Below are positions 29,724-33,357 of a DNA stretch of 64,000 nucleotides, piece after piece. Source of the stretch: Pandoraea pnomenusa (lineage in GTDB: Bacteria; Pseudomonadota; Gammaproteobacteria; Burkholderiales; Burkholderiaceae); NCBI RefSeq assembly GCF_000767615.3, contig NZ_CP009553.3, forward strand, positions 1,178,001-1,242,000, read 5' to 3'. A program made the translations under genes and the position numbers. The notes under the pieces are model-generated. The model was not told the DNA's origin, searched no databases, and saw only the letters and a list, made by a program, of their open reading frames with translations. Positions within the stretch are counted from its first letter, which is position 1; every line of letters begins with the position of its first letter.

Positions 29724-30203
29724 TCAGTGCGATCGCCAGACGTTCGCGGACGGCATGAGCGGCAGGCGCTTGCCCAGGCTCACGACGTCGTCGGCCGCGT
29801 AGCCATGTGCCGTGTAGAACGCCAGGGCTTCGCGCGATCGGGTGAGCACTTGCAGATTGAGCTTGAGGCAACCACGCTCGGCCAGTGCGGCTTCCGCGTG
29901 GCGCAGCAGGGCGCTCGCCACGCCGCGTCGGCGCAGCGCGCGCGCGACGGCCAGCGAGTACACCCAGCCGCGATGCCCGTCGTAGCCGGCCATCACCGTG
30001 CCGGCGATCTTGCGATCGCGCACGGCAACGAAGAACAGACCGTCGCGCATCGCCACCTTGTTGGCGATCGAGCGACGCGGTTCGCGATGCGGCTTGTCAG
30101 GAGCGTTGTATTCCGGGAACGCGTCGCGCCAAAGCGCCAGCACCGCGTCGGTGTCGGCGTCGTCGAACGCGCGGATATGAATCTCGGCGGGCATGGCGAT
30201 CAT
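29724..30203 (-). CDS. GNAT-family N-acetyltransferase
   Basis: A 159-residue GCN5-related acetyltransferase. The central part has the acetyl-CoA-binding pattern SLAVARALRRRGVASALL with the R/Q-x-x-G-x-G/A-like turn, then LKLNLQVLTRSREALAFYTAHGY. This matches the YpeA group of predicted acetyltransferases. Its start overlaps the stop of the next gene upstream, another GNAT, as ATGA (30203-30200), so the two form an operon. Substrate unknown. Confidence 0.85.
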   Translation of the reverse strand: MIAMPAEIHIRAFDDADTDAVLALWRDAFPEYNAPDKPHREPRRSIANKVAMRDGLFFVAVRDRKIAGTVMAGYDGHRGWVYSLAVARALRRRGVASALLRHAEAALAERGCLKLNLQVLTRSREALAFYTAHGYAADDVVSLGKRLPLMPSANVWRSH

Positions 30204-30697
30204 GGCGCTTCCTGTGGGCCGGTGTAGATATCCGGGCGATGGATCTGCATCATCTTGTTGACCGGTCCGAGCGGTTCGAAGCCATAACGGGCGTAGAGAC
30301 CCGCGGCATCGGTCGTGGCAAGCAGAAAACGACGCAGGCGCTGCAGCGCGGGATGCGCCAGCACATTTTCGCAAAGGCGCTTGCCGATGCCGAGGCCGCG
30401 CATCGACGGATCGACGAACACATCGGCCAGATAGGCAAAGGTGGCGCGGTCGGTGATCACGCGCGCGAAGCCGACCTGACGCGACGGCCCGCCCTCGACC
30501 TGTGTGGCGTAGGCACCGAAACACAGCGAATTCGAGACGGCACGCATGAGCGTGTCCCTGGGAATGTCCTTGGCCCAGTGCGTTTGTGTCGAGAGCGCGT
30601 GATGAATGAAGGCGATGTCCAGCCGTGCCGGGTCGGACGAGATCTCGACGATGGCGTCGGCCGGCGGGGGCGGGTGCCCGTGGCTCAGGTCGTTCAT
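30200..30697 (-). CDS. GNAT-family N-acetyltransferase
   Basis: A 165-residue acetyltransferase. FVDPSMRGLGIGKRLCENVL contains the acetyl-CoA pyrophosphate loop RGLGIG, and YARYGFEPL is the common C-terminal segment. It resembles small single-domain GNATs of unknown substrate. It is upstream of, and overlaps by four bases, a second GNAT, to which it is not obviously closely related. It sits 88 bases after argD on the same strand, so it might be read from the argD transcript. Confidence 0.85.
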   Translation of the reverse strand: MNDLSHGHPPPPADAIVEISSDPARLDIAFIHHALSTQTHWAKDIPRDTLMRAVSNSLCFGAYATQVEGGPSRQVGFARVITDRATFAYLADVFVDPSMRGLGIGKRLCENVLAHPALQRLRRFLLATTDAAGLYARYGFEPLGPVNKMMQIHRPDIYTGPQEAP

Positions 30698-30785: not shown

Positions 30786-32045
30786 TCAGGCGTGCCTGGC
30801 GAGCAGCGAATCGAGCATCGAGAGCATCTGATCGATCTCGTCGCGGCTCACGTTCAGCGCGGGCATGAAACGCAGCAGCCCGGGGCGCGGCGAGTTCAGC
30901 AGCAGGCCGTCCGGGGCCATGTCGCGCGCGGCCTCGACCAGTTGCGGACCGATCTCGCGCCCGAGCATCAGCGCGCGCAACAGACCGGCGCCGCGCTCGC
31001 CCTGGCCGCCGTAGCGCGAGGACAGATGTTGCAGCCCGGCGCTCAGATAGTCCGCCTGCGCTCGCACGAATTCGAGAAAACCCGGTGCGGCGACGGTGCG
31101 CATGACCGCGAGGCCGACGGCGCACATGAGCGGGTTGCCGTTGTACGTCCCGCCCTGGTCGCCGGGCTGGAACACCGCGAATGCGTCGCCGCACAGCATG
31201 GCCGCGAGCGGCACGCCGCCGCCGATGCCCTTGCCGAGCGTCATGATGTCGGGCACCACGCCGGCCTGCTGATGCGCGAACATCGTCCCCGTGCGTCCGC
31301 ATCCGGTCTGGACTTCGTCGACGATCAGCAACAGGCCGCGCGCGGTGGTGAGTTCGCGCAGCGCCTTCATGAAGGCGTCGGTCGCCGGCACCACCCCCGC
31401 TTCACCCTGAATGGGTTCGAGCATCACGGCAACGGTGTCGGGGCCGATGAGGGCTTCGACCGAGGCGATATCGTTGAGCTCCGCCTTCGGGAAGCCCGGC
31501 ACCTGCGGCGCGAAGATCGTGTCCCACCCTGGCTTGCCGCTGGCCGACATGGTGGCCAGCGTGCGGCCATGAAAAGCGTTCTTGAACGTGATGATCTCGT
31601 AGCGCGCACCGCCCGCGGCGTTCGGGTGCAGTTGCCCCCACTTGCGCGCGAGCTTGATGGCGCTCTCGTTCGCCTCGGCACCGCTGTTGGCGAAGAACAC
31701 CTTGCCGAGTCCGGAGAGCCGTGCGAGCAGATCGGCCAGTTCGATCATCGGCACGTTGTAATACGCGGGGCTTGGATTGAGCAGCAATGAGCCTTGCGTG
31801 GCGAGCGCGTCGCGCATCACCGGATGGCAGTGACCGAGGCTGTTCACGGCCCAGCCCTGGATGAAATCCAGGTATCGCTTGCCTTCGTGATCGTAAAGCC
31901 AGCCCCCCTTGCCGTGCGTGAACACGAGATCGGGGCGCGTCGTGATGGGGAGCAGCGCGCCGGTGGCGAACTCGGAGAACTTCGCGCTGCGCGCCGGTTT
32001 GGACGTGGCGGGGGCGGGGGTGGCGGACGGGGGGGCAAGCGACAT
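30786..32045 (-). CDS. argD: Acetylornithine transaminase (class III PLP aminotransferase)
   Basis: Predicted to convert N-acetylglutamate semialdehyde to N-acetylornithine in arginine synthesis. The 419-residue class III fold has ANSGAEANESAIKLARKWG for phosphate binding, HGRTLATMSA, Asp in LLIVDEVQTGCGRTG, and the PLP lysine in MTLGKGIGGGVPLA. The first 25 residues are a Pro/Ala-rich extension. ATG 32045 has GGAG seven bases before it. Other class III activities (ornithine or 4-aminobutyrate transamination) cannot be ruled out. A leader with an Arg-rich frame and terminator lies directly upstream. Confidence 0.9.
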   Translation of the reverse strand: MSLAPPSATPAPATSKPARSAKFSEFATGALLPITTRPDLVFTHGKGGWLYDHEGKRYLDFIQGWAVNSLGHCHPVMRDALATQGSLLLNPSPAYYNVPMIELADLLARLSGLGKVFFANSGAEANESAIKLARKWGQLHPNAAGGARYEIITFKNAFHGRTLATMSASGKPGWDTIFAPQVPGFPKAELNDIASVEALIGPDTVAVMLEPIQGEAGVVPATDAFMKALRELTTARGLLLIVDEVQTGCGRTGTMFAHQQAGVVPDIMTLGKGIGGGVPLAAMLCGDAFAVFQPGDQGGTYNGNPLMCAVGLAVMRTVAAPGFLEFVRAQADYLSAGLQHLSSRYGGQGERGAGLLRALMLGREIGPQLVEAARDMAPDGLLLNSPRPGLLRFMPALNVSRDEIDQMLSMLDSLLARHA

Positions 32046-32084
32046 GACGGTCTCCGAAGGGCAAGGTGGAAGAGACGAGGAAAT

Positions 32085-32114
32085 AAAAAAAGCCACGGGG
32101 GTTGCCCGTGGCTT
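32085..32114 (-). terminator. Terminator hairpin in the argD leader
   Basis: On minus, AAGCCACGGG and CCCGTGGCTT form a perfect 10-bp stem with a short loop followed by seven T residues, all within 70 bases upstream of the argD ATG. It is too close to argD, and too far from the next gene, to be only that gene's end. A leader attenuator fits better. Confidence 0.85.
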
Positions 32115-32137
32115 CGCTGTGCTTGAGAACTTGCGTG

Positions 32138-32224
32138 TTATCGCAGTCGATAGCGTGCCGCGCGGCATCCCGGTTGGGGCAGCGTACGGCGACGTCGGAT
32201 CGAGGCGATGGCAATCAGGTTCAT
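32138..32224 (-). CDS. Putative arginine-rich leader peptide of argD
   Basis: A 28-codon frame from ATG 32224 to TAA, with eight arginine codons: four in a row at codons 10-13 (CGA CGT CGC CGT), then codons 21, 24, 26 and 28. It lies between a good promoter and the terminator before argD, with 23 bases between its stop and the hairpin. That is the layout of amino-acid attenuators. There is no ribosome binding site and the predicted transcript starts at about the ATG, so translation would be leaderless. GC-rich random frames are also Arg-rich, so this remains a hypothesis. Confidence 0.45.
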   Translation of the reverse strand: MNLIAIASIRRRRTLPQPGCRAARYRLR

Positions 32225-32231
32225 GTCGGCA

Positions 32232-32261
32232 AGCATAAAGCGCTCAGGCGGCGCTTGTCAA
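32232..32261 (-). promoter_or_regulatory. Sigma-70 promoter of the argD leader
   Basis: On minus, a perfect TTGACA (32261-32256) and TATGCT (32237-32232) are 18 bases apart. The start would be near 32225, giving a leader of about 180 bases before argD. Confidence 0.6.
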
Positions 32262-32322
32262 AGGGTATGCGCGCACTGTGGCGCGCGTGCATCTGCGGGC
32301 CGGCGCCAGGCGGCGCCGCGTG

Positions 32323-33357
32323 TCACTGACCGCCGCCCGGATTGTCGGCCTCGGTGGTGAAGGCGTCGGCGAAGAAGGCGTCTTCCGGCAGCCGGTGGTG
32401 GGCGACGAAGTCGCGGCGTGCCGACTCGACCATCACCGGCGCGCCGCAGGCATATACCTCGTAGCCCGACATATCGGGCAGGTCTTCGGCCACGGCGCGG
32501 TGCACGAAGCCCGTGCGGCCTTGCCACTGGTCTTCTGGCGCGGCCTCGGAGAGCACGGGCACGAACCTGAAACCCGGGATCTCGCGCGCCCACTGCTCGG
32601 CGAGTTCGCGCATGTAGATGTCTTTCAACCGACGCGCGCCCCAGTAGAGCGTCATCGGCCGCGTGAGCCCCTTGTGAACGGCATGCTCGACGATGGCCTT
32701 GATCGGCGCGAAGCCGGTGCCAGAGGCGAGCAGCACGATCGGCTTGTCCGACTCCTCGCGCAGGAAGAATGTCCCCAGCGGGCCTTCGAAGCGCAGGATC
32801 TCGCGCACCTTCATGTGCTCGAACACGTGGTCCGTGAACACCCCGCCGGGCATGTGGCGCAGGTGCAGTTCCATGAAGCCTTCCTCGTGGGGCGCGGTGG
32901 CCATCGAGTAGCTGCGGCGCCTGCCGTCCTTCAGGATGAATTCGATGTACTGGCCGGCAAGGTACTGGAACCGCTCGTTGGCGGGCAGTTGCAGGCGCAT
33001 GACCATCACGTCGTCGGCGCGGCGCTCCAGCGCATTCACGCGGCACGGCAGGCGCTTGACCGGGATATCGCCGATGCCCTTGACCTCGCGCGATTCCACG
33101 ACGAGATCGCTCTTGGCATGCGCGCAGCACAGCAGCGCGAAGCCGCGTGTTTCCTCGTCCTTCGACAAGGCGGAGCTCGAATGCGCACCATGCTCGACGG
33201 CGCCCTCGACGAGCTTGGCCTTGCACGACCCGCAACCGCCGTTCTTGCAGCCGTAAGGCAGCCCGATGCCCTGACGCAGCGCCGCGGAAAGCACGGCCTC
33301 GCCGTCTTCGACCTGGAACTCGCGCCCGCTCGGCACGAGGGTAACGTTGTAAGCCAT
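32323..33357 (-). CDS. Ferredoxin-FAD-NAD(P)H reductase (CDP-6-deoxy-hexulose-dehydrase reductase type)
   Basis: A 344-residue electron-transfer protein. The N-terminal 2Fe-2S domain has the plant-type cysteine pattern CKNGGCGSCKAK plus FALLCC. It is followed by an FAD domain with GQYIEFILKDGRRRSYSMA and an NAD(P)H domain with LLASGTGFAPIKAIVEH. This order is shared by phenol hydroxylase reductase and by AscD/DdhD, which reduces the deoxysugar dehydrase E1; automatic annotation often names it so in Burkholderia. No dideoxysugar genes are here, so its electron acceptor is unknown. It starts 15 bases from a divergent gene. Confidence 0.85.
   Translation of the reverse strand: MAYNVTLVPSGREFQVEDGEAVLSAALRQGIGLPYGCKNGGCGSCKAKLVEGAVEHGAHSSSALSKDEETRGFALLCCAHAKSDLVVESREVKGIGDIPVKRLPCRVNALERRADDVMVMRLQLPANERFQYLAGQYIEFILKDGRRRSYSMATAPHEEGFMELHLRHMPGGVFTDHVFEHMKVREILRFEGPLGTFFLREESDKPIVLLASGTGFAPIKAIVEHAVHKGLTRPMTLYWGARRLKDIYMRELAEQWAREIPGFRFVPVLSEAAPEDQWQGRTGFVHRAVAEDLPDMSGYEVYACGAPVMVESARRDFVAHHRLPEDAFFADAFTTEADNPGGGQ

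Follow-up and report, generated by a model that had tools for sequence, protein, structure and literature searches.

A predicted leaderless arginine attenuator upstream of argD in Burkholderiaceae and its relation to the small RNA BcKCsr7

The window analysed here, a stretch of 64,000 nts from Pandoraea pnomenusa, carries the argD gene on the minus strand at 30786..32045. The encoded acetylornithine transaminase was recognized by the model NF002985 with 676.8 bits (cut-off 568), and a GGAGA motif is found 5 nts before its ATG (32045). As the next two aminotransferases of the Pandoraea genome are RocD-like (TIGR01885) and AstC-like (TIGR03246, beside AstA), the ArgD of the window is probably the biosynthetic enzyme. 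Two GNAT acetyltransferase genes lie close behind argD on the same strand (29724-30697, minus) and may be cotranscribed with it, while a reductase-like gene upstream of the argD promoter ends at 32323.

A promoter of the sigma70 type was read from the sequence on the minus strand at 32232..32261, with a -35 hexamer TTGACA (32261-32256), an 18-nt spacer and a -10 hexamer TATGCT (32237-32232). It matches the consensus at 10 of 12 positions and was the only one found in the interval 31500-33000, for 0.2 expected in shuffled sequences. The -10 hexamer is followed, after seven nts, by the ATG (32224) of a leader ORF of 28 codons, MNLIAIASIRRRRTLPQPGCRAARYRLR, located at 32138..32224 (minus strand, TAA at 32140-32138). 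This ORF contains eight Arg codons, four of them successive (CGA CGT CGC CGT, RRRR, 32186..32197, minus); these control codons form segment 1 of the leader. Segment 2, GCCGCGCGGC (32157..32166, minus), is predicted to pair either with segment 1, giving an anti-antiterminator, or with segment 3 (32105..32115, minus), giving an antiterminator. Segment 3 is the 5' arm of an intrinsic terminator with seven T residues (32085..32115, minus; stem of 10-11 bp, 32115-32089), the stem of which begins 23 nts after the leader stop codon. The terminator sits between the leader ORF and argD, as ribosome-mediated transcription attenuators require, and the gene that follows makes the amino acid that would be sensed, as this class also requires. 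The argD frame itself is open upstream across the terminator (32045-32168, minus) up to an ATG at 32168, and automatic annotation may therefore add a false N-terminal extension of 41 residues.

An earlier note on this DNA had listed these elements, from the promoter and the 28-codon frame with eight Arg codons to the 23-base gap, the terminator and the argD ribosome site, and all of them were confirmed from the sequence. It had also held against the frame that it lacks a ribosome site. This is correct, and the spacing of 6-7 nts between the -10 hexamer and the ATG fits a leaderless start, so that the leader frame is probably leaderless and would need no such site. With the customary distance from promoter to start, the first base of the transcript would be the A of the leader ATG or a neighbour of it.

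Arg-rich frames were suspected in that note to be common by chance at high GC content, and they are: the window contains 11 short frames with RRRR, compared to an average of 10.0 in 100 sequences simulated by a first-order Markov model. At this composition, such a frame is nothing out of the ordinary by itself. When a -10 hexamer at leaderless spacing was demanded as well, one frame was left in the window compared to 0.16 in simulated sequences, and the further addition of a terminator left one compared to 0 in the 100 simulations. The evidence that goes beyond chance is conservation.

To follow the leader within the genus, 32 genomes were searched and the best 30 ArgD loci were taken by protein similarity alone; the leader frame was present in 30 out of 30. 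Among 120 distinct Burkholderiaceae leader loci, the caller detected the frame in 117 (118 rows of 121, L001 and L031 being identical). Because a call needed RRR close to the start as well as a TAnnnT hexamer 5-10 nts ahead of the ATG, the first three Arg codons and the presence of the -10 hexamer are given by construction. The distance from the -10 hexamer to the ATG was 6 or 7 nts in all 118 called rows, for the 5-10 nts allowed. Among 80 distinct ORFs, 79 open the Arg run with CGA, and 73 have Arg at its fourth codon, one position beyond the RRR required by the search. In the three missed loci, Arg-Arg-Cys-Arg was found in frame (L100), an ACG replaced the leader ATG with the remainder kept (L102, a smaller Burkholderiaceae genome of 4.2 Mb in about 300 contigs), or the bases at the start of the frame were undetermined (L110). 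The length of the frame varied from 14 to 32 codons across relatives; the stop codon therefore shifts, in contrast to the Arg run and the segment behind it, which stay. In the leader alignment, the conserved parts were the frame, the switching segments and the terminator. The frame and its Arg codons are thus kept upstream of argD in relatives, and the core stem of the terminator was present in the full fold of 60 out of 60 aligned leaders.

The predicted pairing allows segment 2 to engage either segment 1 or segment 3, each exclusive of the other. To mimic a ribosome positioned on the Arg codons, segment 1 and the 3' arm of the terminator were left out by design from a stalled fold, and the core of the antiterminator (columns 87-170, 88-169 and 89-168) was then part of the minimum-energy structure in 60 of 60 leaders. 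Core 1:2 pairs appeared in the full fold of 44 of the 60. Across the alignment, 90.7% of cells fit the antiterminator pairs and 92.8% the 1:2 pairs; with the segments slid, these values drop to 20-39% and 24-59%, respectively. No two-sided (compensatory) changes were seen in the antiterminator or in the 1:2 helix of the aligned leaders; because the key columns are invariant, covariation neither supports nor contradicts the alternative helices. The terminator had one pair with two-sided changes, in two cells. In 62 of 67 leaders, the leader's own segments 2 and 3 formed a stronger duplex than shuffled sequences did on average, and swapping segments between groups gave a mixed result, the own-group duplex often not being the strongest. 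When partners of the terminator 5' arm were searched in a region of 36-84 nts beginning at +15, the best one started 16-36 nts after the beginning of the Arg cluster in 21 out of 21 leaders, among them distant ones that have other terminators; complementarity compared to shuffles was modest (mean z of -1.2, 3 of 21 at p below 0.05, a positive value for L245).

Two small elements had been put forward in the earlier note as possible partners in alternative folding. The palindrome TGCCGCGCGGCA (32167-32156, minus) is present and, in the pairing model, is the conserved switching segment, a role that predicted pairing supports and covariation does not. The TATCG-ACTG-CGATA hairpin is present in the window; among the aligned leaders, it recurs in some from Pandoraea and in none from other groups.

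From the ATG to the Arg run, the length was a multiple of 3 (24, 27 or 33 nts) in 59 out of 60 aligned leaders, and the exception, L101, is an alignment artefact, as the run was in frame when the leader was called directly; this pattern rests on few independent indel events. After the Arg run the lengths were not constrained in this way, with 25, 22 and 13 leaders by remainder. The ratio of non-synonymous to synonymous changes was 0.68 over 279 non-independent pairs, a value that is weak as evidence and that might be expected if little but the Arg run matters.

The leader has a counterpart among catalogued RNAs, which the earlier note had missed. The segment 32086..32238 (minus) matched the Rfam family RF02884 (BcKCsr7) over model positions 1-157 of 157 with 46.2 bits (E 3e-8), below the gathering score of 59; judged by sequence, the RNA of the window is a homologue of RF02884 rather than a filed member. 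RF02884 is filed as "Burkholderia sRNA 7" (type Gene; sRNA), without a function, and its consensus, translated by eye from the -10 hexamer, holds the same frame (MNRFLSALRRRRSPLL...; MNRFLSALRRRR...). No Rfam cis-regulator such as a T-box or a riboswitch was found at the window, where only RF02884 and MicL (E 0.45) matched. In the family, RF02884 matches were obtained in 182 of 299 genomes and 9 of 25 genera, and scored above the gathering score in 133 of the 299. Each of the 90 RF02884 loci taken from outside the genus set (L032-L121) contained ArgD, which lay downstream on the same strand every time in the 87 with orientation checked; eight further loci in this synteny test had been chosen because they lie before argD.

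A model, R1, was built from 60 aligned leaders and run on 12 chosen genomes, 8 of which matched at E 0.05. It added three genera (g5, g7 and g17), each with the frame before argD, while the match in G046 and the second matches inspected were not argD leaders. Second matches to RF02884 itself occur in five listed family genomes. No convincing second copy of the leader was found in the Pandoraea genome, where the next match of R1 had an E of 0.02 and covered part of the model.

In Burkholderia cenocepacia J2315, the RNA is listed as RIT34, nc5U30 or Bc_KC_sr7 at 2,967,641-2,967,787 (147 nts) and is expressed in biofilms according to dRNA-seq; its level goes down in Caenorhabditis elegans infection and up under organic peroxide, and it is assigned no function in the part of that review used here (PMC10987360). 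Likewise, Bc_KC_sr1-7 are listed, sr7 without a function, in the part of PMC6321483 used here. For genus g11, presumably Burkholderia, 29 distinct leaders were measured: the leader ATG and the end of the terminator stem are 140-149 nts apart, most often 147. Compared to the listed 147 nts, and depending on how the table sets the 3' end, this leaves little room for a 5' UTR. In our reading, a leaderless arginine attenuator precedes argD, and BcKCsr7 is the RNA that it yields on termination.

Given this anatomy, its conservation, the synteny with argD and the mutually exclusive pairing potential, we propose, with a probability of about 0.86, that the argD leader is a leaderless transcription attenuator in which the ribosome senses charged arginine tRNA. 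We infer that transcription would begin on the leader ATG or no more than a few bases away, and that ribosomes would load directly on the 5' AUG. When arginine is ample, the ribosome would pass the Arg codons and reach or cover segment 2; the 3:4 terminator would then form and a terminated RNA of roughly 150 nts, the BcKCsr7 RNA, would be released. When Arg-tRNA is short, the ribosome would stall on the Arg codons and cover segment 1, leaving segment 2 to pair with segment 3; this pairing would block the terminator and allow transcription of argD. The layout of his, trp and leu attenuators that the earlier note had recognized upstream of argD is thereby supported by conservation, argD synteny and predicted pairing, including the antiterminator expected in the stalled fold. 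What counts against the attenuator are the invariant key columns, which yield no compensatory changes in its favour, the modest complementarity of single leaders, the mixed swap result, the weak ratio of non-synonymous to synonymous changes and the small number of independent indel events, as well as the changes of the RNA in C. elegans infection and under organic peroxide (PMC10987360), which arginine sensing does not obviously predict.

Other explanations of the same leader were weighed against this one. BcKCsr7 has been catalogued in Rfam and detected as an sRNA (PMC10987360), and attenuator RNAs can act in trans too, as described for rnTrpL of Sinorhizobium meliloti (PMC7298713); it could thus be a free trans-acting small RNA that merely adjoins argD. 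We consider this improbable. ArgD accompanied every one of the 90 RF02884 loci fetched, what is conserved is the leader frame, the switching segments and the terminator, a single convincing copy was found in the Pandoraea genome, and the Arg codons and the leaderless frame would be left unexplained; as a primary role, action in trans is disfavoured by the synteny with argD. A slightly smaller chance is given to attenuation of the arrest-peptide type, in which the nascent Arg-rich peptide or a ligand held by the ribosome (arginine or ornithine) would be sensed instead of a shortage of Arg-tRNA. Arg-rich nascent chains can slow ribosomes, and speFL of E. coli senses ornithine. However, apart from the Arg run, the leader peptide changes greatly from group to group (MNLIAIASI, MNRFLSAL, MNQALHL or MHCTAATAGS), which an arrest peptide could hardly tolerate.

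The lowest probability, a very small one, goes to an ordinary 5' UTR in which an Arg-rich frame arose by chance next to a hairpin that is unregulated or related to processing. About ten short RRRR frames are indeed expected per window of the same composition, but the conservation of the leader and its synteny with argD rule this explanation out unless the leader is kept for an unrelated reason at the DNA level, and the arrangement recurs in distant lineages (30 of 96 loci compared to 0.4 expected). An argD operon under an E. coli-type ArgR was also considered and rejected, as the C-terminal domain Arg_repressor_C (PF02863) was detected in none of 80 family genomes, the Pandoraea genome included, while the same search found it in 8 of 14 control genomes. 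Pseudomonas carries an ArgR of the AraC type, which is another type of regulator than the PF02863 one. If the attenuator reading is true, a large family in which no E. coli-type ArgR was found has an end-product sensor for arginine synthesis, the catalogued family BcKCsr7 gains a function, and the attenuators are joined by a leaderless one that is specific for a new amino acid.

The trp, his and leu attenuators of Proteobacteria combine a leader peptide rich in codons of the regulated amino acid with segments pairing as 1:2, 2:3 or 3:4 and an intrinsic terminator. The argD leader shares with them the codon run, the alternative pairings (as predicted), the terminator and the biosynthetic gene downstream, and differs by its arginine specificity and its probable leaderless start. 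The leaderless trpL of S. meliloti comes close in the latter respect: its transcript begins at the AUG of the leader ORF, and the RNA set free by attenuation, rnTrpL, is regarded as an sRNA, but the system concerns tryptophan and trpE(G), has another sequence, and has trans functions that were shown there (PMC7298713; PMC10117765, as far as the parts used here go). In the orf34-speF leader of Salmonella, an ORF with two consecutive Arg codons makes ribosomes pause at low arginine; the target is an ornithine decarboxylase gene and control proceeds via Rho, RNase G and mRNA folding, not an intrinsic terminator (PMC6386406, in part). In Pseudomonas, carA, which serves the synthesis of arginine and pyrimidines, is preceded by a leader peptide and may be subject to attenuation. 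According to the part of PMC4997734 used here, this attenuation is linked to pyrimidines and arginine exerts its effect on transcription; no Arg-codon switch is described there. The earlier note knew of no well-described arginine attenuator of the trp/his/leu type in this group, and in agreement with it our literature searches, which covered mainly the main texts of freely readable papers, found none for argD. Neither argD nor arginine is named in the main text of an attenuator survey (PMC2965389), as far as it was accessible. In the accessible parts of the other sources, a start-site study of B. cenocepacia (PMC4603805) mentions leaderless transcripts and neither argD nor nc5U, and PMC4035088 and PMC5719362 contain none of the terms sought.

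Beyond the leaders aligned, 30 of 96 further loci had an Arg-cluster frame followed by a terminator ahead of argD, for a mean of 0.4 in 20 simulations; this excess is descriptive because the thresholds of the caller were set after some of these loci had been viewed. Three of the 30 calls (L152, L160 and L251) repeat places seen before. Nine belong to the same family (Cupriavidus, Caballeronia and the like) and 21 lie outside it, including Herbaspirillum (Oxalobacteraceae), MAGs titled Burkholderiales, Oceanospirillum and Amphritea (the latter in Gammaproteobacteria), and MAGs titled Hyphomicrobiales and Rhodoplanes (the latter in Alphaproteobacteria). The 21 also include calls in 5 of 6 genomes of one family, the ArgD of which is 72-77% identical to that of Rhodoplanes. 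The ATG follows closely on a -10-like hexamer in many, not all, of the distant leaders. The remaining 66 of the 96 loci gave no call, among them Polynucleobacter, Zoogloea, Brackiella, Dechloromonas and an Alcaligenaceae locus. At ten further loci, Rfam returned RF02884 only at L141 and L158, below its cut-off; the other matches were chance-like or elsewhere, such as a Leu_leader in L158 that lies 2.5 kb off (E 0.04-0.07).

We lean, by little more than even odds, towards a broader proposal: that the leaderless arginine attenuator of argD is widespread across Beta-, Gamma- and Alphaproteobacteria and stands in for ArgR at least in Burkholderiaceae, that BcKCsr7 is its terminated product, and that the RNA or the Arg-rich peptide may also act in trans.

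When R1 was run at the level of the order, 24 of 399 genomes matched at E 0.001, in 25 places. Among 12 places inspected, argD follows at L207 and L209, which belong to the same family, and at L206 and L211 from other families. L208, L212, L213, L214, L216 and L218 look like unrelated hairpins; four other places are known leaders of the family. L210 and L223 have leaderless-looking short frames containing Arg codons and a similar terminator, at about position 1512 on the match strand, and the genes that follow are, named by eye, transglutaminase-like and permease-like, respectively. A search for ArgD at the level of the class gave 8 of 274 genomes at E 1e-90, with a clear leader in L232 and a doubtful one in L231. 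The argD leaders of Oceanospirillales (L178-L183 and L186) have two Arg clusters, LRR... and, at the C terminus, ...RRR. The two clusters flank a conserved Cys-Leu-Gly stretch, the RNA of which can pair with the terminator arm, as computed for L178, L183 and L186.
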